Assembly (NCBI GenBank): GCA_013215145.1
Contig: JABSRP010000011.1
Span: 1 to 64,000 of the forward strand
DNA length: 64,000 bases
Direction of reading: 5' to 3'
From: Pseudobacteriovorax sp.
Lineage (GTDB): Bacteria; Bdellovibrionota_B; Oligoflexia; Oligoflexales; Oligoflexaceae
Made by a program: the position numbers and the translations under genes. Positions within the stretch are counted from its first letter, which is position 1, and the number at the start of each line of letters is the position of its first letter. Below are positions 7,318 to 27,656 of this stretch, in pieces. The notes below the pieces were generated by a model. It made no database searches, had not been told where the DNA came from, and was given only the letters and a program-made list of their open reading frames with translations.

Positions 7318-7321
7318 CCCT

Positions 7322-7348
7322 GGCGACAACGAGGTGTCGCCACCTCGT
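7322..7348 (+). promoter_or_regulatory. Two overlapping alternative hairpins after the CxxCH gene
   Basis: GGCGACA (7322-7328) can pair with TGTCGCC (7335-7341), and ACGAGGTG (7329-7336) can pair with CACCTCGT (7341-7348). The two stems share bases and exclude each other. There is only a short T-run after them. This may attenuate readthrough into the lipoprotein gene at 7446. Confidence 0.5.
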
Positions 7349-7445
7349 TTAAGCATATTGATCATGGACATCCTTTCGAGGATACGGGACAGCAGAGTAT
7401 TAACAATACCTTTTTTGAAGACTTAGAGAAAGGAAAGAGGGACTT

Positions 7446-8117: not shown

Positions 8118-8198
8118 GATCTAAGTGATCGACATAAGTTTTTGATACGAAAAACAACAAAAATAAAAAACAACATTTGAAGATAGGGAAAACAAAGT

Positions 8199-9773: not shown

Positions 9774-9793
9774 GCAACGCGACACAACTAATG

Positions 9794-9820
9794 CCTGGGG
9801 CCTAAAGCCCCAGGTTTTTA
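9794..9820 (+). terminator. Rho-independent terminator of the DUF1501-like gene
   Basis: CCTGGGGC (9794-9801), loop CTAAA, GCCCCAGG (9807-9814), then TTTTTA. A textbook intrinsic terminator 20 nt after the stop codon. Confidence 0.92.
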
Positions 9821-9916
9821 TGTGCCCTGCCATAAAGCAGAGCAGGTACGACGAGACAGAGTTAAACAACTTAGAGACGACACATAACTTTGTTATGACG
9901 TAAATTAGGGTGGAAC

Positions 9917-11296
9917 ATGAATATTATAAGACTAGGGATCATTGCTTTGTTCAGCACAATGCTGATGCTAACAGGCTGTTCAAAGCCACCAAAAATTAGT
10001 GCAAGCGGCGGAGGCGCCGATAATGGATCTGGTGGGCCTGGCGACGCAGCAGACGTGGAACAGGCGAATGGCTTTCCAACGGGTTCACTGGCGATGTTCA
10101 GTAGCAACCTATACGAGCCTGTGATCGAACAACAATGTAAAAAATGTCATCATGCTGAGACTAATCAAAACGATACGGCTGAGAATGCCTTCGCTTACTT
10201 TACAGATGGTGTCCGAGCTAATTATCAAAAACCTGAGTTCTCTTCGACGGTAGAAAAAGTCCTCTCAGGGCACAACTGCTGGTCGGGTGACTGTGTAGAA
10301 GATTCTGCTACCATCCTTGCCGGAATCGAAGCTTGGTTTGCTGAGATGAAAGCCGCTGGTTGGGTACCACCATCGGTAACCTATGCAGGTGGAAATTCGG
10401 CGACAGTTGCCTTTAACAGTGGTGCTCCTTATGTGCCAGAGATGAATCCGGCCGAGTACATCGGCGGTCCCATCACAATGGCGACGACAGCGAACAGCTG
10501 GGCGACACCTGCTACCGATGATCCGGATGGTGCCTTAGCCGAGTATGTGGCTGGTACACTGGGTCAGAACAATAACAACCCGGCAAACCAAAATGCTGGA
10601 AATGCGGTGTTTACCTTTGATGTTCAGACTCCTGGCGAGTACTTCGTTTGGGTACGGACTAAGATGATCGATAACGATCAGAACCAGTTGTTTGTTAGTA
10701 ACATTACAGACGCTGCCAACCCTATCGATCTCGAATTTGATAATGACACCGAAGTCACGGCGGAAGCCTGGGGATGGCGTCAATTGATGATCACAGATGA
10801 AAACGATAACCGAGTTCCGGGAACATTTAACTTGGCAGCAGGTCCCGCTACAATTCGACTCACAGAGCGTGAGGGTGGTGTTCGTGTGAACTATGTGATC
10901 CTAACACCAAAACCGGATCCAAACCTTCAGACCTTCAGTGAGAAGTTCTACGATGTCACAACTGATGTCTCTGAACTTGTCGGTGTCGATGCAAAGGTGA
11001 TCGTGACTCTATGGGAGAAAGCTCAGGCAGAGGATCAAGAGAAGATCATCGGGATTAAAGAGATGCGCATCGAATCAGCTCAGCCGATTCATGTCAAAGG
11101 AATCTTTCCTGTGATCAATGATTTTTACCAGAATGATCACGCGACCTATACTCAGGTGGATGGAACCTTCGGTGGTAGTGATGTGCGCGCCGACCAGATT
11201 ATTCAGACTGGTGGTGCGACGGCAACGACCTGGCGTGGTGACTATGCAGCCGATAGCTTTAACCTAGGGTTTGAGCTGATTGAGGTCGCTCAGTAA
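9917..11296 (+). CDS. CxxCH lipoprotein with carbohydrate-binding-like domain
   Basis: 459 aa. Signal peptide with lipobox LTGC, a Gly/Ser linker, then a haem-type motif CKKCH with HAET following, and a helical region with a Cys pair (GHNCWSGDCVED) like other planctomycete-type cytochrome domains. From about residue 155 a beta-rich segment (FTFDVQTPGEYFVWVRTKM ... GPATIRLTEREGGVRVNYVIL) reads like a jelly-roll carbohydrate-binding module. The last ~130 residues (MRIESAQPIHVKGIFPVIND...) resemble the DUF1592-neighbouring surface domains with no assigned function. It has its own terminator upstream and downstream, so it may be a separate transcript in the same functional cluster. Inferred role: outer-surface or periplasmic redox/binding protein. 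Confidence 0.7.
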   Translation: MNIIRLGIIALFSTMLMLTGCSKPPKISASGGGADNGSGGPGDAADVEQANGFPTGSLAMFSSNLYEPVIEQQCKKCHHAETNQNDTAENAFAYFTDGVRANYQKPEFSSTVEKVLSGHNCWSGDCVEDSATILAGIEAWFAEMKAAGWVPPSVTYAGGNSATVAFNSGAPYVPEMNPAEYIGGPITMATTANSWATPATDDPDGALAEYVAGTLGQNNNNPANQNAGNAVFTFDVQTPGEYFVWVRTKMIDNDQNQLFVSNITDAANPIDLEFDNDTEVTAEAWGWRQLMITDENDNRVPGTFNLAAGPATIRLTEREGGVRVNYVILTPKPDPNLQTFSEKFYDVTTDVSELVGVDAKVIVTLWEKAQAEDQEKIIGIKEMRIESAQPIHVKGIFPVINDFYQNDHATYTQVDGTFGGSDVRADQIIQTGGATATTWRGDYAADSFNLGFELIEVAQ

Positions 11297-11502: not shown

Positions 11503-13350
11503 ATGGCTCAGGCAAAATATACGGAAAGCAATATCCGGTCTCTAGATTGGAAACAGCATATTAGGCTGAGGCCGGGGATGTACATCGGTAAGCTAGGTGA
11601 TGGTAGCTCTCCTGACGATGGTATTTATGTGCTCCTGAAAGAGATCATTGACAACTCTATTGACGAGTTTGTCATGAAAGCCGGAAACCGTATTGAGATC
11701 AGCCTCCAAGACGATGGCGTGCTAGTTCGAGACTTTGGTCGTGGGATTCCTCTTGGTAAAGTCGTCGATTGCGTATCAAAAATCAATACGGGCGGTAAGT
11801 ATGACTCAGAGGCCTTCAAAAAGTCAGTGGGCCTCAACGGCGTTGGTACCAAGGCTGTCAACGCATTGTCTCAGGCTTTTGAAGTCACCTCCTATCGAGG
11901 GGGTAAGGGGAAGACGGCGCGATTCACATGTGGCGAGCTTATTCAGGAAAAAAATCTAAGCCGGACTGGGCAAGAAGATGGCACAGCGGTGTTCTTCCGT
12001 CCAGATCAGAGTATATTTAAAGATTATAAATTCGACCTAGCCTTTATTGAAGCCATGGTGTGGAATTATGTGTTTCTGAATACAGGATTGACGATTCATT
12101 TTCAGGACACAGACTATCAGTCGAAACGCGGTCTCCTCGATCTCTTAGAGCGCAACACTCAGAGTCAAGATATTCGCTATCCGGTCATTTTTCTAAAGGA
12201 TCACGATATTGAAGTCGCCTTCACTCACGGTGATCAGTACGGAGAGGAGCACTATAGTTTTGTAAATGGCCAGCATACGACCATGGGCGGAAGCCATCAA
12301 GTGGCCCTTCGCGAAGGGGTGGTAAAGGGCATTCGTGAGTTCTTTAAGAAAGATTTTGATGCCGCAGATATCAGGTCTGGATTAATTGCAGCTATTAGTG
12401 TCAAAGTCCAGGATCCTGTATTCGAATCCCAGACCAAAACAAAACTAGGCTCTCAGAAAGTCAGTGAAGATGGTCCCACTGTGCGAAGTTGGGTGGTGGA
12501 TTTTTTAAAACTCCAGATTGATAACTACCTGCATCGCGAGCCTGAGGTTGCCATTGCTCTGCAGAAGAAAATTCTACAGTCAGAAAAAGAACGCAAAGAG
12601 ATGGCTGGGATTAAAAAGATTGCGAGCGAACGAACGAAGAAAGCCAATCTCTATAATAAAAAGCTAAGGGACTGCCGCGTTCACTATGGAAGCTCCCATA
12701 AGAGGCAAGATGAGTCGATGATCTTTATCACAGAGGGTGACTCGGCTTCAGGTTCTTTGACTAAAGCGCGCGATGTTCAAACACAGGCTGTTTTTAGCCT
12801 GCGCGGTAAACCCCTTAACAGCTATGGTCTGACTAAAAAAATCGTCTATGAAAATGAGGAGTTTAGCCTTCTTCAGCATGCCCTGAATATCGAAGATGGT
12901 CTAGAGGGACTTCGTTATGCAAAGATTATCATAGCTACCGATGCCGATGTCGACGGCATGCACATCCGGCTATTGATTATGACATTCTTCTTGCAGTTCT
13001 TTCCCGAACTTGTCCGTAATGGTCACGTCTTTATTTTGCAAACACCGCTGTTTCGTGTGCGAAATAAGGAAGAAACCATATATTGCTACGATGAAACTCA
13101 GAGAAAGTCTGCCATCACCAAACTTGGAAAAAAAGCTGAAATTACGCGTTTCAAAGGACTTGGAGAGATTTCCCCGAAAGAGTTTGGTCAGTTTATTGGC
13201 GCATATATGCGTATCGAACAGGTCCGCCTAACCCAGAAAACGGCGATTTCTGAACTTCTGAAGTATTTTATGGGAAAAAATACTCAGGAGCGGCAAAAAT
13301 TTATTATTGATAATCTACGCAGCGAATTAGACTCAGAGGAAATGATATGA
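11503..13350 (+). CDS. parE: DNA topoisomerase IV subunit B (Bacteroidetes-like)
   Basis: 615 aa, ATPase subunit of the type IIA topoisomerase that decatenates chromosomes. GHKL ATPase motifs are complete: [17 protein letters not shown] and [14 protein letters not shown]. The TOPRIM domain shows [12 protein letters not shown] and the metal-binding [10 protein letters not shown]; the C-terminal end has the [14 protein letters not shown] region. The N-terminus ([38 protein letters not shown], given here in part) is closer to what I know of Bacteroidetes ParE than to proteobacterial ParE. ATG 11503 follows AGGAGAGC. It overlaps parC by 4 nt (ATGA), so the two are translationally coupled. Gyrase is not in the window. 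Confidence 0.92.
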
Positions 13351-15875
13351 CGATTTCGGATCCAGCAGTAGAAAGGGCCCCACTCGATGGACAAAATACT
13401 CCTGGTGGTATCTCGGGCGGTGGAAAAGGTTCTGATGACGTCGAAGGCATGTACGAGGAGTGGTTTCTTGACTACGCTAGTTATGTGATCCTCGACCGGG
13501 CTGTCCCGGGGATTGATGATGGTTTAAAGCCTGTGCAAAGGCGTATCCTTCATGCCATGAATGAGCTTGAGGATGGTCGATATAATAAAGCTGCCAATAT
13601 TATCGGACATACCATGCGCTATCATCCTCATGGCGACATGGCTATCGAAGATGCACTAGTTAAGATTGCTCAGAAAGATCTACTAATTGATACTCAGGGT
13701 AACTGGGGAAACATCGCTACCGGAGACCGAGCCGCTGCTCCGCGATATATTGAAGCGCGACTGTCTCCGTTTGCTAAAGAGATCCTATTCAAAGAGGAGG
13801 TGACCGAATGGTCGTTATCCTACGATGGTCGCAATAAGGAACCAGTTTCTTTGCCAGTTAAGTTTCCCTTGTTGCTGGCCACTGGTGTTGAAGGTATCGC
13901 TGTAGGACTCTCTACGAAAATCTTACCTCACAATTTTCATGAACTGATTGATCAAAGTATTTGCCATCTGAATGATGAAAATATCAGCCTTTTTCCTGAC
14001 TTTCAGACTGGGGGAAGTATAGATGTTTCTCAGTACAATGATGGTAAACGAGGTGGTAAGGTTAAGGTTCGAGCCAATATCGAGATTGTTGATAATGTAA
14101 CCTTGAAAATCAATGAATTACCTTATGCTGTGACGACATCAGGTTTGATTGATTCTATCATTTCAGCGGCGGATAAGGGTAAGCTCAAGATAAAAAAAGT
14201 CGAAGATAATACAGCGGAGTTGGTAGAAGTCTTGGTTCACTTGCCCGCTGGAATCTCTCCTCATACGATGATCGATGCTCTTTATGCCTTTACTGACTGT
14301 GAGATAAGTATCTCACCCAATTGCTGTGTGGTCAAAGATGATCAACCATCTTTTATTGGTGTTACAGACCTTTTGAAGCATTCTGTCGAACAGACAAAGC
14401 AGCTTCTGTCGCAGGAACTTGCGATTGAGCGAGATGGGTTAAAACAAAAAATTCATTTTGCTGAGCTCGAGATCATCTTTATCGAAGAAAAAATCTATCG
14501 CAAGATTGAAACAGCTGAGTCCTGGGATCAAGTGATGGTAGCTATCCGAAAAGGATTGGCCCGTTGCCTTGATGATAAGGCTGCTTCTGTTAGTGATGAC
14601 GATATTACAAAGCTAACTGAGATCAAGATAAAACGTATCTCTAAGTTTGATCGGAAAAAGGCCGAGTCGTCTCTCAAAAAGCTTAAGACTGCAGTTAGGG
14701 CTATCGAAAAAAAGCTCAAGCATATTACCCAAACCACCATTGACTACTATCTGAATCTTAAAGAAACCTATGGAGAGGGGAAGGAGCGAAAAACTACCAT
14801 CGAGGAATTTCAGCAAGTTGAGGCAAAGGCGGTGGTTGTCGCTAACCAAAAGCTATATGTCAATAGACGCGAGGGTTTTGTTGGAACGGCACTGAAAAAA
14901 GATGAATTCGTTACAGATTGTTCCGATCTCGATGAAATCATCTCTTTCTGCAAAGACGGAAAATTCCAGGTGACAAAGGTCTCTGACAAAACCTTTATTG
15001 GTAAGCAGGTTTTGGATGTGAGGATCTTTACAAGAGGCGATAAAGACACGATCTATCATGTATTATACCAAGATGGAAAAGATGGCCCCATTTACGCTAA
15101 GCGATTTCCTATAAGCTCAATTACGCGTGATCGATCCTATGATCTGACAAAGGGGGCGAAAGGCTCGCGGATACTTCACTTAAGCAGTAATGAGTTTGGA
15201 GCTAACGAAGTTGTTGAACTCCATTTGAAAGATAAAAAACGTAGCTCCCTGGCGACTATGGAGTTGGACTTTTCCGAGATTCCTATTCAGACGCGAGGGG
15301 TAAAAGGTCAACTGATAAGTAAGGATACCTTCGTAAAAGTTAAGGTCTTAGAGCGAGAGCAACCTTCAGGAGCTGAGTTTGAATTATGGTTTAACAAAAG
15401 CGAGCGCAGGCTAAACCAAGATGGCCAGGGAAAGTCTCTAGGTCAGTTTACCTCCGATGATAAACTATTTGCCATTTATAAGAAGGGTGTTATCGAAGCT
15501 TATGAACCAAGCACGGAAATCTATTTGGATGATGATTTGGTTCATGTAGCTAAACTTCAAGGTGAGGAAGTCGTTAGTTGCGTGTATTACCACGGTGAAA
15601 AACAAGACTACTATGTGAAGCGTTTTTCGCTAGCGGAAATGACACTTGGTAAACGGGAGGAGTTTGTCGATCCCCATCCTAAGAGTAAGATATTGATTCT
15701 AAGTTTTGGACTAGAGCCTGAAGTTCAAGTTACCTACAAAAAAGGAAAGAAGGCAACGCCCGAACCTGAAATCATTTGCTTAAGTGATATTGTTGCCCCA
15801 AAAGGGATTCGGGCCATTGGTAACAAGCTTAGTCGACAGTCGGTGAAAACTGTCAAATTAGCAAAACGGAATTAA
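13347..15875 (+). CDS. parC: DNA topoisomerase IV subunit A (Bacteroidetes-like)
   Basis: 842 aa, DNA-cleaving subunit partnered with the upstream ParE. The breakage-reunion domain has [14 protein letters not shown], the quinolone-determining helix region ([17 protein letters not shown]) and the catalytic Tyr at about residue 134 ([15 protein letters not shown]). A charged coiled-coil region follows at ~380-500, then a beta-propeller-like C-terminal domain rich in KxGKxxx repeats. As with parE, the sequence around the active site and the C-terminal domain resembles Bacteroidetes ParC/GyrA-type proteins. An N-terminal Gly/Ser-rich extension of ~33 residues precedes the core. It ends 28 nt before the convergent fxsA gene. 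Confidence 0.92.
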
Positions 15876-16586: not shown

Positions 16587-17450
16587 TTAAAGGTTAGAGA
16601 CGCGTTTGGTCTGTGTGGCGAGCTTGCGAAAGAAGCGAGCCTCCTCAAATTGTGTGGACTCGTAGCAATCGCTTAGATTTGAAATTGATTCGGCGCATCC
16701 AAGAACCAGATAGCTGTCGTCTTTCAAATAGCGATGCATATTTTTTAAGATCTCATACCGCTTCTCCAGACTTTGATAAATAAGTACATTGCGACAGAGA
16801 ATGATGTCAAAACTTCCTGTTATGCTCCAGGCCTCAAGAAGGTTGAAGTGTGAGAAAGATATATGCTTTTTCAGTTCGTCGTTGACCTCCCATAGAGTTC
16901 CTGGACGGTCGTCAACCTTGGGTTTTTGATTGAAGTATTTGACAAGATTTGCCGAGCCCAAACCTCGTTGGACTTCTAGCTGAGTATAGATGCCAGATTT
17001 TGCTTTATCGAGTGCTCTTTGGGAATAGTCTGTGGCAACAATGCTAAAGTCAAAGTCTTTTTGCTTTTTTTGTAGGGTTAGCAGCTCCATGGCTAGGCTG
17101 TATGGCTCCTGTCCAGTACTACAAGCGGCAGACCAAATGCGTACGCTCTTGCCTTCTGCGGCAAGGGGTTTGATTACCTCACGAATAAGGGTCTTAAAAA
17201 CTTTTGCATCTCTAAAGAATGAGGTTTCGTTGTTTGTTGCAACATCCAAAATATATTTTGTGATCTTTTGATCACGTAATTTTGCAACTTTATGATGTAG
17301 AGTTTCCATGGAATCTAGTTCGAAGTGAGCTACAACTGACTCAAGTCGGGACTCTAGTTGATAAAAAGTCATTTCATTGTAGACAATGCCGATCTCTTTA
17401 AAAATGAGGTCTGCAAAGAACTTTAAGATTGGACCATTTAGGTCTTCCAT
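16587..17450 (-). CDS. cheR: Chemotaxis protein methyltransferase CheR
   Basis: 287 aa. SAM-dependent enzyme that methylates glutamates of chemoreceptors. N-terminal helical CheR_N domain, then the SAM-binding motif ACSTGQEPYSLAM, the segment NETSFFRD that precedes it, and the catalytic-domain marker ILCRNVLIY. Length is normal for CheR. Last gene of the minus-strand operon that begins with cheA; its ATG overlaps the cheY stop by 1 nt (TAATG), so it is translationally coupled. No receptor (MCP) gene is in the window, so the methylation substrates lie elsewhere. Confidence 0.95.
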   Translation of the reverse strand: MEDLNGPILKFFADLIFKEIGIVYNEMTFYQLESRLESVVAHFELDSMETLHHKVAKLRDQKITKYILDVATNNETSFFRDAKVFKTLIREVIKPLAAEGKSVRIWSAACSTGQEPYSLAMELLTLQKKQKDFDFSIVATDYSQRALDKAKSGIYTQLEVQRGLGSANLVKYFNQKPKVDDRPGTLWEVNDELKKHISFSHFNLLEAWSITGSFDIILCRNVLIYQSLEKRYEILKNMHRYLKDDSYLVLGCAESISNLSDCYESTQFEEARFFRKLATQTKRVSNL

Positions 17451-17818
17451 TATGCGACCTTTCTTTCCAAAACCATTTCTAATTTTTCGAAAAGAATATC
17501 TTTGGTGAAAGGTTTCATAATATACTCATCGGCACCAAAGGTTAGGGCTTCGGATATATCTTTTACATTGTTTTTGGAAGTTACCATAACAATGGGGATT
17601 TCGCTGCCACCGTCTCGGAGTTTTTTAAGAGCTTCCACACCAGTGACGTTGGGCATCTCCCAGTCGAGGAGGATCACATCAATGTTTTGTTCACCGGCAA
17701 CGGTATCGATAGCTTGCTGGCCATCGTAGGCATGTAGGAGCGTATGTTCCGTTTCTGCAAACATAGCCTCGATAAAGCCATGGACCGATTTTGAATCGTC
17801 GGTAACTAAAATTTTCAT
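17450..17818 (-). CDS. cheY: CheY-type single-domain response regulator
   Basis: 122 aa consisting of one receiver domain: acidic pair VTDDSKS, phosphoacceptor Asp in VILLDWEMPN, switch Thr/Ser in IVMVTSKNN and conserved Lys in YIMKPFT. No output domain, so it should act as a diffusible phospho-protein under CheA control, binding either a flagellar switch or another target. It lies 34 nt after the 277-aa MshEN-like protein gene and is coupled to cheR. Because no flagellar gene is nearby the output (flagellar or other) cannot be decided. Confidence 0.94.
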   Translation of the reverse strand: MKILVTDDSKSVHGFIEAMFAETEHTLLHAYDGQQAIDTVAGEQNIDVILLDWEMPNVTGVEALKKLRDGGSEIPIVMVTSKNNVKDISEALTFGADEYIMKPFTKDILFEKLEMVLERKVA

Positions 17819-17852
17819 CGAAGTTTAACCCCCAAACTACAATAATTCTTAT

Positions 17853-18686
17853 TTATAATAGCGCTTTAAGTTTTGTAATGGCTCCAACAAAATTTCCCTT
17901 GGATACATTATTTTCCCAGAACTCCCTTTCATCGCCACTCACTTCGATGAATCGGTGCAGCTCCCATAAAACGTCAAGAACCGTGAGTCGTGTCGGTAAA
18001 AAATCACCATTCTTAAGTAAGCTTCTTTCGGGGTCGTCTGAAAGAGCTTCAATCACTTGGGTCAGTACCTCTAGAAGTGTAAAAGAGATCTGCATTCTAG
18101 CAAAGTTAGCTGCAGCAGTTAATTGTTGGAGTGTTTCTTCAAGTTTCATCAGTAAGGTATCGTAGTCGGAATCCTGAGCGACGACTTTTTGTATGCTTGT
18201 TTCTAAAAACTGCTTAATCTCATTTGAGAAAAAATCAATATACTGGCGCTTTGTTTCGCCGCTAACTTTGGCGAATTCAAATGCGTACCCACCATCATCG
18301 ACGTTCTCCTCTGCTACATGATTTTGTACCTGTGCTGGACGATCATCTCTCTGTTGATCCAGCACCTCACTTAGGGAGGCAATATCGATATTGAATGTTT
18401 CGGCAATAATTTGACCAAGAGGTTGTCTCGAGGCTTTTTGATGTTCACTTACCTCGGAAATGACTTTTTGAGAAAGAAATCCAAGTTTGTTGCAAGTTGA
18501 GGTGAAGGTGTCTCCGCTCTCCCTGACCCCGATGGCCTTGACCAAGTCTTTGCATGATATTAGCTGCTTTTCATGGCAAATTTCAAATGTTGATACCAAT
18601 TGATCGCTTTGTAGCAGTAATGCTTCGGCGAGCTGCTCTCGGTTAATCACCCCCATTTCCACCAGTCTATTTCCAAAAAAACCCAT
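17853..18686 (-). CDS. Chemosensory-operon protein with MshEN-like repeats and Hpt-like C-terminus
   Basis: 277 aa, not a known che product. Residues 4-26 (FGNRLVEMGVINREQLAEAL) match the half-repeat of MshEN/GspE N-terminal domains; weaker copies occur at about 31-53, 60-83 (CNKLGFLSQKVISEVSEHQ) and 89-112 (PLGQIIAETFNIDIASLSEVL), i.e. two tandem MshEN-like units. MshEN is a c-di-GMP-binding domain in some secretion and pilus ATPases. The C-terminal part (145-250) is helical and laid out like a CheA P1/Hpt bundle, but LTAAANF stands where HTxKGS would be, so the phospho-His is missing. Encoded between the 131-aa paralogue and cheY. Inferred role: ligand-binding or scaffold component of this signalling operon. 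Confidence 0.7.
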   Translation of the reverse strand: MGFFGNRLVEMGVINREQLAEALLLQSDQLVSTFEICHEKQLISCKDLVKAIGVRESGDTFTSTCNKLGFLSQKVISEVSEHQKASRQPLGQIIAETFNIDIASLSEVLDQQRDDRPAQVQNHVAEENVDDGGYAFEFAKVSGETKRQYIDFFSNEIKQFLETSIQKVVAQDSDYDTLLMKLEETLQQLTAAANFARMQISFTLLEVLTQVIEALSDDPERSLLKNGDFLPTRLTVLDVLWELHRFIEVSGDEREFWENNVSKGNFVGAITKLKALL

Positions 18687-18698
18687 ATCAAATCTCTC

Positions 18699-19094
18699 CT
18701 ATGCGGCAATTTCAATTCCGAAGTCGCTAGGGCTTTCTATGACCATCGCAACGTATTCATCGAGTTTTACGGTTAAATCTGTAAAGGTTACGTGCTGATT
18801 TTTCAGTAGGTATAAGAATATAGATGGAACCTGATCCTTTATTATGCCGTCTAGCTGTAGTGAAAATTCTTCAGACCAATAACCCAAGACTTGGCAACTC
18901 TTTTCAAAACTACAATGCTCTGACGTCTGATGCTCATAAACAGCAAGTATTTGGTCAGTCGTCAGAAGGTTATTATCCTTAATCAGCCTCGGTAGAGACT
19001 TATTTCCCTTCGATTGTTGAATAAAGGCTTGCACCATGATCTCTGGGGTTACAATGCCGGATTCGACTAAAAACTCGCAAAAAGAAATTTTCAT
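18699..19094 (-). CDS. Small MshEN-like repeat protein in che operon
   Basis: 131 aa. Starts inside the last codons of cheB (4-nt ATGA overlap) and ends 12 nt before the 277-aa gene. It resembles the N-terminal half of that protein: repeats at 4-27 (FLVESGIVTPEIMVQAFIQQ), 34-56 (LPRLIKDNNLLTTDQILAVY), ~62-80 and ~92-113, the spacing of two MshEN-like units. The LG pair and Arg typical of good c-di-GMP binders are not well kept, so nucleotide binding is uncertain. No signal peptide or membrane segment. Likely a cytoplasmic partner of the chemosensory proteins; no named family recognised beyond the repeat. Confidence 0.7.
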   Translation of the reverse strand: MKISFCEFLVESGIVTPEIMVQAFIQQSKGNKSLPRLIKDNNLLTTDQILAVYEHQTSEHCSFEKSCQVLGYWSEEFSLQLDGIIKDQVPSIFLYLLKNQHVTFTDLTVKLDEYVAMVIESPSDFGIEIAA

Positions 19095-20182
19095 AAAATA
19101 CCCTTTACCATTTTTGAGATAATTTTTTCACAAGCATCAATACTTTTGATTTCGTCGAAAGCATCAACCTTAAATACGCTGCCTGGCATACCCCAAACGG
19201 TAGACGTTTCCTCATCTTGTATGACCACACAGCCTCCAGCATTTTTTATAGCTATAGAACCATCTTTACCGTCGCTTCCCATTCCGGTCAAAACCATTGC
19301 AAAGGCCTTTCTTTGAAAAATTTCAGCAGCAGATTCGAAAAGATAATCAACGGCAGGCCTGACGGAACATCTCTTTTGCCTTTGATCAAGCGATATACTA
19401 ATATCGTCTCCTTGCTTGACCAGAGTCATATGGTAATCTCCCGGAGCTATATAGATGCGATTTTGTAAGGTTTCCATGTGCTTTGCTTCAGCAGTCTCAA
19501 TTTGGGTTAATTCTTGAATCGATTTCGCCAACGAGCTTGTGAACGTCGGAGGCATATGCTGGGTGATGAGAATTGGAATCTTTAAAGGTGGACGCAACTG
19601 ACCTAAAAGTGTTTTTAATGCTACTGGCCCGCCGGTGGAAGAACCTACGACACATATCTTAGGTGAAAACATATTTACGTTGATTTTGTGCCAATTACTT
19701 TTGTTCGGAGTTTGACTTTGAGGAACTGGAGCGGCGGGAGCTGAAGTCGTTTGCCCAACAGCCACTTTTTCAGGTACTCTGTTATTGCTAATGAATTGAA
19801 GTGCTCTAGGAATGAGTTGCTCTTTTATATGTTCAAGGGCTTCTTCTAACGAATTAACATTAGCTGGTTTTGTTACAAAATCATTTGCACCAGCCTCCAG
19901 TGCTTTGATTGTTGTATCGGCACCACGAGCAGACTGACCAGAGAATACTATAGTATGTACCTTTATATTCTTCTGTCGAATCTGTTCAAGGGTTTCGATG
20001 CCTCCCATTTCAGGCATTTCCAAATCGAGTATGAGAAGATCAAAATCTCCGCGTTCGAGTTTGCCAAGGGCTAATACACCGTTAGGCGCAACTTCAATAT
20101 GATTGAACTCTGGACACGAACCAATAGCGGCTTTGATTTGGCTCCGAAACACAACCGAGTCATCAACAATCAGAACTTTCAT
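19091..20182 (-). CDS. cheB: Protein-glutamate methylesterase CheB
   Basis: 363 aa. Receiver domain first (VDDSVVFR, phosphoacceptor in LLILDLEMPEMGG, Lys in FVTKPAN), then a Pro/Ala-rich linker, then the methylesterase domain with the Ser-His-Asp triad in VVGSSTGGP, ITQHMPP and LTGMGSDG. It removes methyl groups (and deamidates) chemoreceptor glutamates opposite to CheR, activated by phosphorylation from CheA. Lies 13 nt after cheW and overlaps the following 131-aa gene by 4 nt. Confidence 0.96.
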   Translation of the reverse strand: MKVLIVDDSVVFRSQIKAAIGSCPEFNHIEVAPNGVLALGKLERGDFDLLILDLEMPEMGGIETLEQIRQKNIKVHTIVFSGQSARGADTTIKALEAGANDFVTKPANVNSLEEALEHIKEQLIPRALQFISNNRVPEKVAVGQTTSAPAAPVPQSQTPNKSNWHKINVNMFSPKICVVGSSTGGPVALKTLLGQLRPPLKIPILITQHMPPTFTSSLAKSIQELTQIETAEAKHMETLQNRIYIAPGDYHMTLVKQGDDISISLDQRQKRCSVRPAVDYLFESAAEIFQRKAFAMVLTGMGSDGKDGSIAIKNAGGCVVIQDEETSTVWGMPGSVFKVDAFDEIKSIDACEKIISKMVKGIL

Positions 20183-20195
20183 ATTTCAACAACCT

Positions 20196-20663
20196 TCATG
20201 CGGCTAGGTCTTCCGCTGTTTCGTTCAGAAAACCAATCACACGATCAATATCAATAACTGACAAAAGCTGTCCTGATACTTTATAGACGCCCCTTAGAAA
20301 TCGTCTTGTCCCTTCAGGAATGGTATTAGGTGTTGGTTCAAAGTCATTGGTATTGACCTCGAGTACATCTCCAATTTTGTCCACTTGAAAAGAGATCAAG
20401 AAACCATCGAGTTTACAAACGACATTGAGTGCCTCTGCTGGACGTTCGACGTGAATCTCGAATAATTCTCTTAGACCTATCGCTGTGGCAACCTGCCCAC
20501 GTAGGTTAATCAGCCCTCTTACAAAATCGGGAGCTAGCGGAATATCTGTCATACCCATGGGTCTCACGATTTCTTGAACTCGAGTGACATCGAGGCCAAA
20601 AAGCCTATTACCGATAATAAAAGTGGAAAACTGCTCTGTTGTTACTTTATTTGTCATAATCAT
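20196..20663 (-). CDS. cheW: Chemotaxis coupling protein CheW
   Basis: 155 aa, a single CheW SH3-like domain: FIIGNRLFGLDVTRVQEIV, the VRGLINLRGQVATAIGLREL core and a final SGQLLSVIDIDRVI strand. It couples receptors to CheA. The ATG overlaps the cheA stop (ATGA); a second ATG two codons later is equally possible. CheA itself has two more CheW-like domains, so this operon encodes three in all. Confidence 0.95.
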   Translation of the reverse strand: MIMTNKVTTEQFSTFIIGNRLFGLDVTRVQEIVRPMGMTDIPLAPDFVRGLINLRGQVATAIGLRELFEIHVERPAEALNVVCKLDGFLISFQVDKIGDVLEVNTNDFEPTPNTIPEGTRRFLRGVYKVSGQLLSVIDIDRVIGFLNETAEDLAA

Positions 20664-23584
20664 CCGCCATTAATGATTTCGTTGATTGTCTTTAGTAGAA
20701 TCTCTTCATTTAGTTTCTCAAGGTAATCGATGAAACCAACATCTTTGCCACGTTTTATGTCCGACTCTCGAAACCTTGTGGTGACGGCAACCATCGGAAT
20801 ATGCTTAGTACTCGTATCAGAGTTTACCTTTTCAGCAAAAGTATAGCCGTCCATTCTTGGCATTTCTATGTCCGATAGAATCATGGTTAATTCATCTTTA
20901 TTTGCCTCAACCATCTCTAGGCCTTGCACACCATCGTCAGCAGTGGTGACCTTATAGCCATTGGATTCAAGACAGTTTCGGATATGATTGCGGAAGAATT
21001 TACTATCTTCAACCACCAAGATATGTTCCGAGTTAGCGGCTTTCTTCGGAGGCTCGAGCTTTATTCCGTGACTATCAGCGTAGTCCTGAATGATTTTAAA
21101 GGCGTCAATCACGACAAAAACTTGATCCCGATCAATGAAGGAACCGAGAATTCCCTGGTGGGATTTAATCTGATCATCGATAGCGGCGGTAGAACCAATG
21201 ACATCCAGGATCTCGCCGACCTCGAGTCCAAATAATCGTTCTTGGTACATAACGACAACGATTGGATTTGGCTCTGAAGGATCGGCCTTCTCTTTTTTGG
21301 GAAAGCCATAATAGTCAAGGACAGAAATTATGGGAAGTAGTTTGCCTCTGTAACGCACCACTCTTTGGCCGCCCGAGTAGTCATACTCACTGTCTTTAAA
21401 CTCTTCCAGACGATTGACTAATGAGAGAGGAAAGGCATACTTGCTTTGATCGTGAACATCGACAATTAGGTAATCAGTGATTTCCTCAAGTTTACGGTTC
21501 TTGTCACGCGCGCCTGCTAAGAAGTCTGAGTCCTCGTCGTTATGACCAATAAGTGCTTTTTCTGCAATTCCCATAACATCCAGTGTCAGCGCTACGGTTC
21601 CGTCACCAAGGAGTGTAGCTCCAGCATATAAGCCGAGAGATTTCAAGAATTGAGTTAAAGGCTTAACGACGATATCAGCTGAGTCTTCGATGTCTTCCAC
21701 AATAAGGCCGAAGGCTGTAGTACCTGCCTTAAGGACTACGATATTGCAAGTGGGATCGTCTAAAAATGATGATCTTTCGAGGGAAGGATCAAGTAGCTGA
21801 TCGAGACAGACCAAGGGTAGCAGTTGACCTCTAAGTCGATAGACGGGCTTTCCTTGTAAGGTTTCAATTTTATTCTCGCTGTCTTCACTGAGGTCGATCC
21901 TAAGTAACTCGAGTAGTTTTACCTGAGGAATGGCAAAACGCTGATCTCCCGACCTAATAAGTAGTGCCGGTACGATGGCCAAAGTTAGTGGGATTTTTAA
22001 CAGAAGCGTCGTCCCCTTACCCAGAGTCGAGTTAAGGTCGATGACTCCTCCAATTCGTTCAATATTGGTCTTGACAACGTCCATGCCCACACCTCGACCT
22101 GATATATTAGATATCGATGCTGCGGTGGAGAATCCAGGTGCAAATATTAGCTGATGGACTTCCCGGTCGGACATGTTAGCCAGTTGGTCGTTGTTCACGA
22201 TACCTTTTTCAAGGGCCTTTTGTCCAATTTTATCACGATCCAATCCTCTCCCATTGTCGGCGATCTCTATCACGACTTGGCCGCCTTCGTGGTAGGAGTT
22301 GATCATGATCTGACCCACTTCACCTTTACCAGAGGCTAATCGTTCTTCGGGTGTTTCAAGTCCATGATCAGCTGAGTTCCGGACTATGTGGGTGAGTGGA
22401 TCCTTCACGGCCTCGATAAGAGTTTTGTCGAGCTCCGTCTCCGTTCCTTCTAATTTTAGTTCAATGCGTTTATTGAGTTCTTTTGCAAGATCTCTCACAA
22501 CGCGATGGAATTTACTTAGGATTGATCCCACAGGTTGCATCCGAGTCTTCATGACTTCGGCTTGAATTTCTGTGGTCACAAGGTTCACCTTTTGAGCGAG
22601 CTTGGCAAATTCTGGGTTTTTATCATCAGCTGCGAATCGAAGAACTTGGTTTCGTACCAGTACGAGTTCTCCAGCAAGATTCATCAATTTGTCCAAGAGA
22701 GTGACGTGAACTCGAATCGTTTCCTGAGAGTCCGCTTTTTTCTCTGTCATTGTATTAGCCTTCTTTTCAGGTTTGGTTGACTTTGGTTTCGGTGTTGATG
22801 GAGCAGGAGCCGGAGACGCCGCTTTAGGAGTAGTTGGACTCGCTTTTGGAGCCGGAACCTCCTTCTTTTCCACTTGTGCTACTGGAGTGGAAACAACTTT
22901 TTCTGGGGCAGCTTTCGCTGCAACAGGCTCTGATTTTTTTACGGCGCTGGCCTCTGGGCCGGCTGTCTTTTCTTCAGTAGGTGTTGAGGGTTTGGCAGCC
23001 ACAGGTTTGGGTTCCACCTTTTTTGGAGCCGCTTCCACTGAAGCTGGACTGGCTTCTACCTTAGTCTCGGAGCTCGTTGTTGCCGTTGCCGCGTGTTTGT
23101 GGGCCTGTGCATCAAATTTGGGTGTGTCTGCATTCGAAACCACATCGAAGCCGATGAAATCATCTCTCAAAAATCTTGTGGATCCGCCTATTGAACGTAT
23201 AGTCATGTCAATGAGTTTTGGAATACAGTCGAGCATTTCTGCTTCGGCATCATGCTCGACTTTGTTTTCTTTTATCGACTTGACGAGGTGAGAAACGATA
23301 TCGCAACCTTTGTAGATCACATCAATGAGATTACTATTTGGTTTGATCAGTCCCTGTCTGATCGGATCGAGACTAGATTCCATGGCGTGGGCAATGGAGC
23401 CAATCTGATGGAACCCAAACAACTGCGATGATCCTTTGATTGTGTGCATATCTCTATAGATGCTACTGATCGTCTCGTTGTCTATTTCGCCCTTCTCAAG
23501 GGAGGACAAAGACAGCGAAATGCGTTCGAGCATCTCCTCGCACTCACTGGTAAATTCACCAATGGCCTCTTCCATTGCGGACAT
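20660..23584 (-). CDS. cheA: Hybrid chemotaxis histidine kinase CheA with two CheW-like domains and a receiver
   Basis: Start chosen at ATG 23584 with AAAGGA 7 nt upstream; a longer frame could begin at TTG 23719 but adds 45 residues unlike CheA. The 974-aa product contains: Hpt/P1 with phospho-His at ~47 (MHTIKGSS); an Ala/Pro/Lys-rich linker (~160-290); dimerisation helices; a GHKL kinase (HIVRNSADHGLETPEER, IADNGRGLD, SGRGVGMDVVK); a first CheW-like domain; a second CheW-like domain (YLIVDVHDQSKYAFPLSLV... and FGLEVGEILDVI); and a C-terminal receiver (VVEDSKFF, Asp in MILSDIEMPRMDG, VTTRFRE). The receiver fusion recalls FrzE/hybrid CheA of deltaproteobacteria. First gene of the operon cheA-cheW-cheB-131aa-277aa-cheY-cheR. 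Confidence 0.93.
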   Translation of the reverse strand: MSAMEEAIGEFTSECEEMLERISLSLSSLEKGEIDNETISSIYRDMHTIKGSSQLFGFHQIGSIAHAMESSLDPIRQGLIKPNSNLIDVIYKGCDIVSHLVKSIKENKVEHDAEAEMLDCIPKLIDMTIRSIGGSTRFLRDDFIGFDVVSNADTPKFDAQAHKHAATATTSSETKVEASPASVEAAPKKVEPKPVAAKPSTPTEEKTAGPEASAVKKSEPVAAKAAPEKVVSTPVAQVEKKEVPAPKASPTTPKAASPAPAPSTPKPKSTKPEKKANTMTEKKADSQETIRVHVTLLDKLMNLAGELVLVRNQVLRFAADDKNPEFAKLAQKVNLVTTEIQAEVMKTRMQPVGSILSKFHRVVRDLAKELNKRIELKLEGTETELDKTLIEAVKDPLTHIVRNSADHGLETPEERLASGKGEVGQIMINSYHEGGQVVIEIADNGRGLDRDKIGQKALEKGIVNNDQLANMSDREVHQLIFAPGFSTAASISNISGRGVGMDVVKTNIERIGGVIDLNSTLGKGTTLLLKIPLTLAIVPALLIRSGDQRFAIPQVKLLELLRIDLSEDSENKIETLQGKPVYRLRGQLLPLVCLDQLLDPSLERSSFLDDPTCNIVVLKAGTTAFGLIVEDIEDSADIVVKPLTQFLKSLGLYAGATLLGDGTVALTLDVMGIAEKALIGHNDEDSDFLAGARDKNRKLEEITDYLIVDVHDQSKYAFPLSLVNRLEEFKDSEYDYSGGQRVVRYRGKLLPIISVLDYYGFPKKEKADPSEPNPIVVVMYQERLFGLEVGEILDVIGSTAAIDDQIKSHQGILGSFIDRDQVFVVIDAFKIIQDYADSHGIKLEPPKKAANSEHILVVEDSKFFRNHIRNCLESNGYKVTTADDGVQGLEMVEANKDELTMILSDIEMPRMDGYTFAEKVNSDTSTKHIPMVAVTTRFRESDIKRGKDVGFIDYLEKLNEEILLKTINEIINGG

Positions 23585-24095
23585 AGGTGGGTCCTTTCTC
23601 GATTGATTCCTATAAGACTCAAATTTGCCCTTGACCGTATAGATCAAAGGCTTACCTTGAGGGGATTCGGTTGCTATAGCGTCAATATTTAGTCCGGTAG
23701 ATGGCTCATGCTTTGGCAACCTGTTGATTTTTCCATACGCGCCTCAACAAAGAATCATATTCTTAGACTGTTACGAGACTTTAGGGTTGGCCAGAACAAT
23801 ATGAACCGGCGAGAATCTGCATGGAATTGCACCGATTTGTAAGCATCGCAGCATAGGGTTGAGGTGTGATTAGCTTGCCGGCCAAAATTTGACCTTTGTC
23901 GTTCTTTTTTATCCAGGCTCTAACCCGTTATATCTGTCAAATATTGATTCTATTTAACTTTCCTTTGTAAAAATATAATTTTGTCCTGGCGCGCTTGTTT
24001 CCTCTTATCAGGCAGAATTTGTTAAGATATTAGGTAGATGTCTTCGTCGTAATGCGATCCTGTGTTTCGCGGTTCATAGTAAGAGGGAGGAAGTC
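23585..24095. other. Intergenic region between divergent cheA and top6B
   Basis: 511 bp that should carry promoters for the che operon (minus) and topoisomerase VI subunit B (plus). The first 135 bp can be read as an N-terminal extension of CheA from a TTG codon, but with no ribosome site. The rest is A/T-rich towards 23940-24030. I see no other coding frame or strong repeat. Confidence 0.5.
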
Positions 24096-25967
24096 TTGCA
24101 AAAGGGAAAAATACGAGCGAGTAGTACTGCCGAGTATTTTGCGAAAAATTTGCAACAAGTTGGATTTTCCTCTCCGACGAAAGCCGTGTTAACCACATTG
24201 AAAGAGGCAGTCGATAATTCCCTTGACGCCTGTGAAGAGGCCGGGATTTTACCTGATATTTCCATCACTATCGAAAAAAAAGGAAAAGGTTCGCTAAAAA
24301 ATACGGATCAAATCCTAGTTAAGGTTGAAGATAACGGACCGGGGATTCACTCAAAGGATATTGCTAAGGTTTTCGGGGAATATCTTGCATCTTCAAAATT
24401 TGGTAAGGGTAGGTGTTCTCGCGGGCAACAAGGTATCGGTATCTCTGCTGCCACCACCTGGGCTATGCAAACGACGGCAAAGGGAGTTCGCGTCACCACC
24501 AAGACAGCAAAGCAAAAAATGGCAACCACTTGCTTAGTGCAGGTGGACTTGAAGCTCAATAAAGGGCACGTGAAAGATAAAAAAGAAATCAAATGGAAGC
24601 GTGAGCGTGGCACTGTCGTTGAGTTCTGGATCGATGGGCGCGTTCAATTGAACGGTGAGGCTGGTGTCATCGCTTTTCTTCGTAGCAATGTGCTGGTTAA
24701 CCCGCACTTAACTCTGCGTTATAAACTTATGGATCAAAAGCCGGTGACTGTAGAACGAGTCAGCGAGCTAGTACCGAAAATTCCTGAAGCCATGGCTCCT
24801 CATCCTCATACGATGAAGCTAGGGGAGTTTCTCGCTCATGCTCGCTTATTCGGAAGTACTGATATCAAAACTTGGCTGTCCGAATCCTTCTCTCGTATGG
24901 ATGATTCTGTTATCAAGGAATTGACTAGCTTAGGCGTAAAAAAATCTCTTTTGCTGAAGAAAATCGATCAGTTAAAAGATGATGATTTTAAATCGCTGTT
25001 TGTTGCCATACAAAATTGTGAGCTTAAACCACCTTCTACGAAAACGGTTTTATCCATCGGAGAGGAAGGTTTGGCAAAAAGTATTTTACGTTTGGGAGAT
25101 GTGGATTACTTTTCTGTGGTGACGCGAAAACCCACCATATGTGATTTCAAACCAGTCCAAGTCGAAATTGCCTTAGCAAGGATGTTAGGTAAAAACTCAG
25201 CAGAAGAAGACGTCGTCCAAGTCCTACGTTTTGCTAATCGTGTTCCGCTGCAATTTGATAAAGCTGGTTGTGCCATCGTCAAGGGAATCAGCACGGTTAA
25301 TTGGAAGTCTTACGGACTGCGCCAGTCGAGATCCTCTTTGCCTTTGGGGCCTTATATCATCGCCGTCAGCTTAGTCTCGCCCTTCATCAAATTTAAAAAT
25401 GCCTCAAAAGAGACCATCGATGCTTCCGAAGAGTTGGTAGAAGAAATCCGTAAGGCTCTCATGCAGGCGGGACAGCGCCTATCCAGGCATCTTCGACGAG
25501 AACACAAAGAAAGTGTTTTGGAAAGTAAAATCCAGCATATTGAAAGTTTTGCTCCCATATTGGTGGAAGGTCTAGTCAGAATCACTGAGTCTGATGAGGA
25601 AAGGAGAGATCGAGCTCATCAGGGATTGCTCAAGCTACTTGGGAGGGAAACAAAGGAAGCGGAAAAGGATTTGGAAGCTGCCGAAACTAAGCTCAAAAAA
25701 CATCTTCAAAGCCGACGGAAGAGGCTTGGTCACGTGGCTACAATCCTAGATCAAGAAAACGAAAAAAATGATGAGTCAGAAAAAAAGTTGGATGAAAACT
25801 CCGAATCTGATAGTACGAACTCTTCCAAGTCTAGGAAGACGAAAAAGGCTTCAGAGAAAACATCAAAAGACGGCAAAAAGGTAGCGAAGAAGAAAGTCGC
25901 GAAGAAGAAAGTCGCGAAGAAGAAAGTCGCGAAGAAAAAAGTCGCAAAGAAAAAAACTAAAAAATGA
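24096..25967 (+). CDS. top6B: DNA topoisomerase VI subunit B
   Basis: 623 aa; TTG start 24096 supported by AGAGGGAGG just upstream. ATPase subunit of the type IIB topoisomerase VI, an A2B2 enzyme that relaxes and decatenates DNA. GHKL motifs: EAVDNSLDACEEAG (Asn ~41), VEDNGPGI (~78-84), and RGQQGIGISAA (~109-119). An H2TH-like segment lies near residues 270-300, then the transducer domain with the switch Lys in the WKxY motif (VNWKSYGL). The C-terminal ~110 residues are charged and end in five Lys/Ala/Val-rich repeats, an extension not needed by archaeal enzymes. The family is archaeal/plant; bacterial copies are rare. The A subunit follows 97 nt downstream. Confidence 0.95.
   Translation: MQKGKIRASSTAEYFAKNLQQVGFSSPTKAVLTTLKEAVDNSLDACEEAGILPDISITIEKKGKGSLKNTDQILVKVEDNGPGIHSKDIAKVFGEYLASSKFGKGRCSRGQQGIGISAATTWAMQTTAKGVRVTTKTAKQKMATTCLVQVDLKLNKGHVKDKKEIKWKRERGTVVEFWIDGRVQLNGEAGVIAFLRSNVLVNPHLTLRYKLMDQKPVTVERVSELVPKIPEAMAPHPHTMKLGEFLAHARLFGSTDIKTWLSESFSRMDDSVIKELTSLGVKKSLLLKKIDQLKDDDFKSLFVAIQNCELKPPSTKTVLSIGEEGLAKSILRLGDVDYFSVVTRKPTICDFKPVQVEIALARMLGKNSAEEDVVQVLRFANRVPLQFDKAGCAIVKGISTVNWKSYGLRQSRSSLPLGPYIIAVSLVSPFIKFKNASKETIDASEELVEEIRKALMQAGQRLSRHLRREHKESVLESKIQHIESFAPILVEGLVRITESDEERRDRAHQGLLKLLGRETKEAEKDLEAAETKLKKHLQSRRKRLGHVATILDQENEKNDESEKKLDENSESDSTNSSKSRKTKKASEKTSKDGKKVAKKKVAKKKVAKKKVAKKKVAKKKTKK
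25881..25955 (+). repeat. Five tandem 15-bp repeats encoding the basic tail of Top6B
   Basis: Unit GTCGCGAAGAAGAAA, five copies with minor changes (first starts GTAGCG; last GTCGCAAAGAAAAAA), each encoding VAKKK. Gives a histone H1-like Lys-rich tail just before the stop. Confidence 0.95.
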
Positions 25968-26064
25968 TTGGCCGTGAGAGACGACTTGAAGCGTCGTTCA
26001 AGATAGACTGTTACTGAGGTATTTCGGCAAAGAGATACAAATCTTATTAATAGGAGCAAGATTC

Positions 26065-27225
26065 ATGTCGAAAAAGCCAAAACGAGTCCTCCAGGAGGAT
26101 ATTCCCGAGATAGCTCTGAGTCTATGCGAGGGGTTGCTCAAAGACTTGGAGCGAGCGAAAAGACCCTTAATTCAGGCAACAAAGTGTAGTTTGGATAACT
26201 CAAATTACGATCCTCGATTAGGTTACCTAACTCCTGGTAACAAAAAAGTCAAAACAGAACTCAACGTGGCGTCCGTGAAAAAAATGTCGCGAACCATTTT
26301 TATGTTAGAAATTCTCTTGCGAAATATTCAGGCCGGTAATGTGAATACCAAGCGCGAGCTCTACTATATGAGTAAGGGGGAGGTTAAGCATAATAGTCTA
26401 TTGAAGCCATTAGATTTTGCTGAGCAGCAAGAATCAGATTCCATAGTTGATTTTATTTGTGAAATCATCGAATGCTACCGTGAAGAGCTAAACTGCTATG
26501 CGAATGATAGGGGAGGGCAAACCTATTCAAAGCAGCTCGTTGTGGAAGAGCAGCTTCCAGACGGAACTACCGCTACCATTGATTTGTCGACACTTGGTAC
26601 GTCGCCCTTCCAACCAAAGAATCGGCCTCAAAATCTAAAGTTATCGTCTCGAAAAAAAATAGACTTTTGCCTCATCGTGGAATCAGAGGGTACCGCCAAC
26701 ACTCTCGTGGCTAATGGTTTTACTAAAAGGCATAATTCCATCGTTGTGGGGGCTCAGGGAGTTCCGTCGAATGCTGTCCGAGGTTGGCTCAAGCGTATTC
26801 AAGATCAGCTTAAAATTCCCTTGTTCTTTTTTGGCGATCTCGACGCCTACACCATGCAGAATATCTATCGTACCCTAAAAGCAGGTTCAGCCGCCTCACT
26901 CATCAGGAACTCTGACTTTTCTGCTCCAGAGGTGAAGTTTCTGGGCGTTTTGCCGGAGGATATCAAAAAATATGATCTTCATGATTATCCTGTGAAAGAA
27001 AATGATGCCGGAGAGTTCCGTTCCCTTAAAAAAGCCAAAGATGCCCTAGAAAATGATCCATTTTTTCAAAGTAGGAAAAACAAGGGATTGGCTGACATTT
27101 TGAGGTGGTTACTGGAAAATAAGCGAAGGTGTGAGCAGCAGGCTTACTTCACGGTTGATCCCCGGGATCCAACCATGCCTGAAAAAATTATTGTTGAAAA
27201 AATTGAGCGCGGAGATTTCATTTGA
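26065..27225 (+). CDS. top6A: DNA topoisomerase VI subunit A (Spo11-like)
   Basis: 386 aa; ATG 26065 with AGGAG upstream. DNA-cleaving subunit of topoisomerase VI. The 5Y-CAP (winged-helix) domain has a Tyr pair at residues 100-101 in TKRELYYMSKGEV, the place of the catalytic tyrosine of Spo11/Top6A. The TOPRIM domain has the metal-binding Glu at 206 (LIVESEGTANTL) and the DxD at 258-260 (FFGDLDAYTM). The C-terminal region (LPEDIKKYDL ... RWLLENKRRCEQQAYF) matches the Top6A dimer region. All residues needed for activity appear present. Together with top6B this makes a complete enzyme; the 97-nt gap with a good ribosome site suggests one transcript. Confidence 0.94.
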   Translation: MSKKPKRVLQEDIPEIALSLCEGLLKDLERAKRPLIQATKCSLDNSNYDPRLGYLTPGNKKVKTELNVASVKKMSRTIFMLEILLRNIQAGNVNTKRELYYMSKGEVKHNSLLKPLDFAEQQESDSIVDFICEIIECYREELNCYANDRGGQTYSKQLVVEEQLPDGTTATIDLSTLGTSPFQPKNRPQNLKLSSRKKIDFCLIVESEGTANTLVANGFTKRHNSIVVGAQGVPSNAVRGWLKRIQDQLKIPLFFFGDLDAYTMQNIYRTLKAGSAASLIRNSDFSAPEVKFLGVLPEDIKKYDLHDYPVKENDAGEFRSLKKAKDALENDPFFQSRKNKGLADILRWLLENKRRCEQQAYFTVDPRDPTMPEKIIVEKIERGDFI

Positions 27226-27401
27226 ATCGCTACCGAAGGTTTGAGCTTGCTTTGAAGTGTAGGAATTTGCATAAAAAGTGGTTCTTGGTCACTTGATGCC
27301 TTTTCATATTGGATTTTCTCCGGTAATATTAATAGAGGCGGATAGTCTACTTTTGAGTGGCTTCTTAATTGCGGAAACTGATCTAATTACGGATGATAGA
27401 T

Positions 27402-27656
27402 ATGTCGAACGAAGATGGTTCCATGAAAGAGTTGGTTGAATATGTTGCCAAAGCGTTGGTTGACGAAGTCGACCGCATCGAAATCAGCGAGATAACGGGC
27501 AATCAAACAAACATTATTGAACTCAAGGTCGCCAAGGAAGATATTGGCAAAGTCATTGGTAGGCAGGGGCGCACAGCCGATGCCATTCGCACGATCTTAA
27601 ATTGTGCAGCAGCCAAACTGAACCGTCGTTATATCCTGCAAATCATCGACGAATAG
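27402..27656 (+). CDS. khpA: KhpA family KH-domain RNA-binding protein
   Basis: 84 aa from ATG 27402 (an ATG at 27393 is also in frame; neither has a strong ribosome site). One type II KH domain: KELVEYVAKALVDEVDRIEI, a beta strand ending ELKVAKEDIG, then the GxxG loop KVIGRQGRTADAIRTIL. KhpA/YlqC proteins bind RNA and, with KhpB, affect cell division and translation in Firmicutes. Usually found near rpsP-rimM-trmD; here it instead precedes nagZ by 10 nt, probably in one transcript. Confidence 0.93.
   Translation: MSNEDGSMKELVEYVAKALVDEVDRIEISEITGNQTNIIELKVAKEDIGKVIGRQGRTADAIRTILNCAAAKLNRRYILQIIDE

Follow-up and report, generated by a model that had tools for sequence, protein, structure and literature searches.

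A complete archaeal-type topoisomerase VI (topo VI), encoded by an Oligoflexia bacterium in the same window as a complete topoisomerase IV (topo IV), raises the question of whether the enzyme is genuine, how the lineage came by it, and what it does beside another decatenase. The window, i.e., the whole stretch of 64,000 nucleotides of Pseudobacteriovorax sp. that was analyzed, is contig C23 of a genome (G000) of 7.39 Mb in 152 contigs. The explanation that best accounts for the data as a whole, to which we assign a probability of about 0.8, is that the gene pair encodes a working topo VI, that this enzyme is the main, inherited decatenase of the group in place of topo IV, and that the Oligoflexaceae keep both enzymes with topo VI as the primary one.

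Topo VI genes in the window

The features are listed in Table 1. Top6B comprises a GHKL ATPase, an H2TH region, a transducer, and a basic C-terminal tail, and its TTG start codon is preceded by GAGGGAGGAAG. Top6A contains a winged helix with Tyr100/Tyr101 and a TOPRIM domain with Glu206, Asp258, and Asp260. Top6B matched NF003218 (PRK04184) with 502 bits (cut-off 274), TIGR01052 with 387 bits (cut-off 381), and the Pfam transducer model PF09239 with 148 bits (cut-off 24). Top6A exceeded the Pfam cut-offs for TOP6A-Spo11_Toprim (132 bits) and TP6A_N (56 bits) and stayed under those of the NCBIfam Top6A models (best 392 vs. 424), which marks it as a divergent member.

Table 1. Features of the window related to the topoisomerase genes.
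Feature	Position	Strand	Length	Remarks
ParE, topoisomerase IV subunit B	11503..13350	+	615 aa	N-box, EGDSA, DADVDG
ParC, topoisomerase IV subunit A, PRK12758 (NF009397) type	13347..15875	+	842 aa	Tyr134
Top6B, topoisomerase VI subunit B	24096..25967	+	623 aa	open frame, profile matches
Lys-rich, histone-H1-like C-terminal tail of Top6B	25700..25964	+	89 aa	KVAKK repeats
Top6A, topoisomerase VI subunit A	26065..27225	+	386 aa	open frame, profile matches
KhpA-like KH-domain protein	27393..27656	+		directly downstream of Top6A in Oligoflexaceae

In a motif alignment of 58-59 rows, with M. jannaschii, M. mazei, and S. shibatae included, residues Y100/Y101, E206, D258, and D260 of Top6A and E37, N41, D79, G81, G110, G113, and G115 of Top6B were invariant, and the Top6B switch residue K404 was K or R. 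The lysine of the WKxY switch was an arginine in 32 of the 58 aligned Top6B sequences, a haloarchaeal row among them. The pair consists of separate full-length A and B subunits encoded by adjacent genes. In B, the N, G1, and G2 boxes of the GHKL ATPase are intact, the switch Lys/Arg is present, and the H2TH region and transducer, lost from topo VIB-like proteins, are retained; A has the Tyr of the winged helix together with the TOPRIM Glu and DxD.

The closest solved proteins to both subunits were the topo VI enzymes of M. mazei, S. shibatae, and M. jannaschii. AlphaFold models were built from shallow alignments (pLDDT of 72 and 74). The predicted Top6B fold matched topo VI first (M. mazei, E-value of 9e-40; S. 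shibatae, TM-score of 0.69) and aligned with full-length Top6B over 477-523 columns, with modeled helices at residues 242-307 between the GHKL and transducer domains. The Top6A model, the domain arrangement of which is doubtful (rmsd of about 15), also matched topo VI first (M. mazei, E-value of 3e-19; 1d3y, TM-score of 0.68 by target length). By tree, profile, and fold, the window pair is a topo VI with adjacent genes in BA order, and it is complete, as the initial annotation had stated. From its motifs it is predicted to form an active A2B2 enzyme.

Related protein kinds were considered and rejected. Topo VIII and Mini-A have a fused or minimal B subunit or an orphan A subunit and occur on mobile elements; the window pair has a full B subunit with H2TH and lies in a chromosomal housekeeping context. 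The initial annotation had named a position among Mini-A/Topo VIII or plasmid-borne groups as evidence against it, and the trees gave no such placement. Spo11 and topo VIB-like proteins were discarded, given that the GHKL domain is not degenerate and H2TH is kept; Spo11 structures also fitted the Top6A model more weakly than topo VI did. PADLOC gave no match to a Wadjet- or Gabija-type TOPRIM defence nuclease. A plasmid or phage origin was rejected as well: only three haloarchaeal plasmids were matched, at 25-33% identity, and neither phages nor PHROG gave any match to the window topo VI. As for a second archaeal trait, bacterial histones, the PF00808 model, which may miss them, matched in a single genome of 58 and at this sensitivity showed no co-occurrence with topo VI. 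RNA structure in the Top6B-Top6A gap was unremarkable (z of -1.7), and promoter and terminator scans gave no more than the chance level.

In topo VI, an A2B2 enzyme, ATP-driven dimerisation of Top6B traps a DNA crossing; the gate duplex is cut by the Top6A tyrosine, and the other duplex then passes. By the same scheme, the two ATPases of the window enzyme would catch a crossing and drive the two Top6A subunits, which would cut one duplex, bound covalently via Tyr101, and let the other through, so that replicated chromosomes may be unlinked.

Neighboring genes and other type II topoisomerases

The window topo IV has an intact ATPase, TOPRIM domain, and Tyr134, in agreement with the initial annotation, which had called it complete. 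It combines ParE and ParC with the catalytic Tyr and EGDSA/DxDxD and has no GyrA box; ParC matched NF009397/PRK12758 with 1170 bits (cut-off 780). It is a type IIA enzyme whose A subunit is unrelated to that of topo VI; an overlapping decatenase role is proposed for the two, and only in Oligoflexales does this kind of topo IV take the place of topo VI or occur beside it. GyrB and GyrA are encoded on contig C68 of the same genome, which therefore has three type II topoisomerases.

Topo IV and topo VI are separated by a chemosensory-type cluster on the minus strand (16587-23719), with CheR, a response regulator, CheB-like and CheW-like proteins, and a CheA-like hybrid of 1019 aa; the cluster is also present in G032, with two CheA-like genes, and absent from G029. 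Four successive ORFs without a Pfam match precede topo IV on the plus strand (6085-11296).

Distribution and phylogeny of topo VI

Topo VI was found in 33 of 58 genomes of the window's phylum (grouping of the tool used), all of them within its order (33/43), and was absent from all 15 genomes in the rest of its class. In Bdellovibrionota, the phylum of Bdellovibrio bacteriovorus, it was present in 147 of 241 genomes. The conservation of the pair in Oligoflexia and Bdellovibrionota, which the initial annotation had proposed to check, is thus borne out; its description of bacterial topo VI as scattered has to be restricted, as it does not apply to Oligoflexales and Bdellovibrionota, where these proportions go with vertical inheritance. 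When 84,980 species were scanned with an alignment of Oligoflexales Top6B, 210 relatives were retrieved, and the titles of the best 80 were nearly all Oligoflexia or Bdellovibrionales, B. bacteriovorus (63%) included. The B and A genes were adjacent at 105 of 106 topo VI loci. Two records titled Streptomyces griseus and Nitrospira (L116 and L174) carry Bdellovibrionota topo VI; these MAG titles are probably wrong.

In both the Top6A and Top6B trees, Oligoflexales and Bdellovibrionota formed one clade (100/100) separate from archaea, the archaeal rows being few and long, which makes the exact position of the root and the lengths of the deep branches unreliable. Families f1, f3, f7, and f9 were each recovered together in the Top6B tree. 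In families f3, f7, and f11, the topo VI locus is shared with mfd, gpsA, and nuo-type genes (the latter assigned by reading the sequences rather than by profile search), which is a core chromosomal place. One clade far from archaea and a common locus in three families argue for old vertical inheritance. The ParE+ParC tree of Oligoflexales was congruent with the GyrA tree (f1; G003/G004/G008; f8; f6+f2). Both enzymes were most likely present in the common ancestor of Oligoflexales, and one of the two would have been lost in most of its lineages; parsimony within the order required about four topo VI and six topo IV changes, counts that cannot separate gain from loss. An in situ swap of topo VI for topo IV was rejected because their loci share no neighbors outside the dual family.

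A recent horizontal transfer of topo VI into the window's lineage, from archaea or a plasmid, would agree with the archaeal type of the enzyme and with the published view that bacterial topo VI generally derives from archaea by HGT (PMC11302465). It is nevertheless highly improbable in view of the fully supported clade with Top6B identities of about 61-69% across Bdellovibrionota and Oligoflexia, the family-wise congruence and shared synteny, and the distance of the haloarchaeal plasmid matches and lack of phage matches reported above. A transfer long ago, at the base of the group, is still likely. Five Bdellovibrionota genomes (L191-L195; G089, G094, G099, G111, and G106), also without ParC, contain a different, much more archaeal-like topo VI, apparently the product of a second transfer from archaea. 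Its genes likewise form a BA pair, yet the type is separate: the proteins are about 36% (B) and 32% (A) identical to those of the window, and its Top6A matches M. jannaschii 1d3y with 369 bits.

Near-exclusion of topo VI and topo IV

Among the 147 topo VI-positive Bdellovibrionota genomes, 142 had one or no GyrA/ParC-type gene. In the remaining five, the additional gene was a split GyrA (G259 and G268), a real extra copy (G103), or what looks like a split GyrA/ParC-type gene too (G087 and G124, no full-length best match). No more than one of the 147 genomes with topo VI thus has a genuine second GyrA/ParC gene, while 77 of the 94 topo VI-negative genomes have two or more (Fisher p of 1.6e-39 over 241 genomes, uncorrected for kinship, so that relatedness of the genomes makes this value overstate the number of independent events). 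At the order level, independent pairs were too few for a phylogenetically independent exclusion test. The assemblies are mostly incomplete, and single absences may be gaps. In another set of 28 topo VI genomes picked by name, many of them also within the 241, all 28 had GyrA only. The second GyrA-like gene of G103 (C83:5018-6493; frame of 946 aa) has about 54 extra residues between model positions 171 and 172 and may reflect contamination or an insertion.

In ten topo VI-negative Bdellovibrionota genomes examined (L252-L261), the second gene was a short ParC with frames of 474-489 aa, which leave no room for the usual C-terminal beta-pinwheel. The window's ParC type was found in none of the 241 Bdellovibrionota genomes; the same query detected 14 genomes at E < 1e-200 in the window's own phylum. 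Within Oligoflexales, the window-type topo IV occurs alone in G001, G003, G004, G008, G013, G021, and G022; topo VI occurs alone in families f4, f5, f7, f9, f11, and part of f3; and both are present in the window's family Oligoflexaceae (f1) and in G007. Close relatives use at least three decatenase set-ups, based on topo VI, on a topo IV with the short ParC type, or on a PRK12758-type topo IV, in addition to the dual family, outside which the two enzymes hardly ever coexist.

From this near-exclusion, topo VI is most likely the main decatenase of the group and an alternative to topo IV, for which it would substitute as a vertically inherited enzyme in Bdellovibrionota and Oligoflexales. Such a role would fit, by analogy, the behavior of M. 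mazei topo VI, which is reported to complement a parE(ts) mutant of E. coli (Allen and Maxwell, unpublished data in PMC11302465); the M. mazei enzyme is a poor relaxase and prefers decatenation (PMC8837201). Neither enzyme was found in 17 Bdellovibrionota genomes, in Oligoflexales family f10, in the whole sister order, and in the class beyond Oligoflexales, which indicates that gyrase alone can suffice; in f10 (G025 and G026) and the sister order (G044-G057), gyrase is apparently the sole type II topoisomerase.

The dual family Oligoflexaceae

In Oligoflexaceae, topo VI lies away from the mfd locus and roughly 7-13 kb from topo IV (G000, G029, and G032), and the gene order Top6BA-KhpA-NagZ is conserved throughout the family. 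The ratio of ParC to GyrA pairwise distances was 2.4-3.1 in the dual family, compared with 1.2-1.9 for pairs that have topo IV only; the 95% bootstrap intervals were separate, or almost so, when the complete protein was used and overlapped for the core. The faster ParC rate lies largely outside the catalytic core. The Top6A/GyrA ratio was 0.60-0.77 in the dual family and 0.73-0.99 in topo-VI-only pairs. Since ParC evolves faster and Top6A does not, topo VI appears to be the enzyme under constraint and would be the primary decatenase of Oligoflexaceae, with topo IV as its faster-evolving partner.

The KVAKK repeats of the Top6B tail are encoded by a 15-nt tandem repeat (25875-25949). Dual carriers had the longest and most basic tails (median of 170 aa, net charge of +37.5), compared with 83 aa and +5 for relatives that have topo VI only and with 42 aa and 0 for Bdellovibrionota; this contrast comes from two independent lineages only, and family f9 is an exception with basic tails and no topo IV.

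These tails, together with the move of the gene pair off the mfd/gpsA/nuo locus to the vicinity of topo IV and the filamentous type species of the family (PMC4179278), could be taken to mean that topo IV is the housekeeping decatenase of dual Oligoflexaceae and that topo VI has been retasked, either for multi-copy nucleoids in filaments or as a nucleoid-bound enzyme held by its basic tail. We consider this unlikely, since Top6A is no less constrained here than elsewhere, ParC is the faster one, and the tail contrast has the narrow basis just described. The special need such as filamentous growth suggested by the initial annotation is not supported beyond the type species, and the tracking of topo IV absence by topo VI presence fits a housekeeping decatenase instead. 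A somewhat better, though still tentative, case can be made for redundancy, in which the coexistence is a neutral remnant from a two-enzyme ancestor and topo IV is about to be lost: losses are reciprocal in sister families, ParC is faster in the dual family, and topo IV is not seen in one Oligoflexaceae genome (G030, 72% complete). The active-site residues of topo IV are, however, intact in dual genomes, and the dual state covers the whole family. A split of labour brought about by coexistence, in which topo VI, having acquired its long H1-like tail and its place close to topo IV, would be a nucleoid-tethered decatenase of large multi-copy chromosomes and topo IV would be drifting to another substrate, is a speculative and rather doubtful variant.

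Comparison with known systems and significance

Topo VI of B. bacteriovorus (L175), listed in PMC11302465 and PMC11318664, resembles that of the window in BA order, all motifs, and clade, with 62% (B) and 70% (A) identity. Unlike the window genome, B. bacteriovorus has a single GyrA/ParC-type gene and no topo IV, and its Top6B (588 aa) is without the long basic tail. The review PMC11318664 lists 'Top IV (Bd0005)' for this species; in the strain searched, the only GyrA/ParC gene has a GyrA box, so the label probably refers to GyrA. The archaeal enzymes (M. mazei 2q2e/9o0g, S. shibatae 2zbk, and M. jannaschii Top6A 1d3y) share domain order, catalytic residues, and fold with the window pair at a much lower identity of about 25-35%. 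The window Top6B has a Lys-rich tail where archaeal Top6B has its C-terminal region. Clade-specific TOPRIM changes occur near the metal site (Top6A residues 231-263), where archaeal DGDPYG and ATRR are replaced by DLDAYT and AVRG and D258/D260 are kept.

Bacterial topo VI, its presence without topo IV in B. bacteriovorus, and the idea of topo IV substitution have already been published (PMC11302465). New here are the group-wide prevalence, the near-exclusion numbers within one phylum, the pattern of reciprocal losses among Oligoflexales, and the coexistence of both enzymes with the accompanying differences in evolutionary rate and Top6B tail. According to Allen and Maxwell (PMC11302465), all three type II topoisomerases occur in Pseudomonadota and Terrabacteria only, and Oligoflexia are unmentioned in the main text of that paper; Oligoflexaceae would be a further such group. 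The same authors state the bacterial role of topo VI as open, and here the enzyme proves widespread and ancient in an entire group of bacteria. The decatenase swap is testable in Bdellovibrio, a genetically tractable predator, and in Oligoflexus, a cultured relative.
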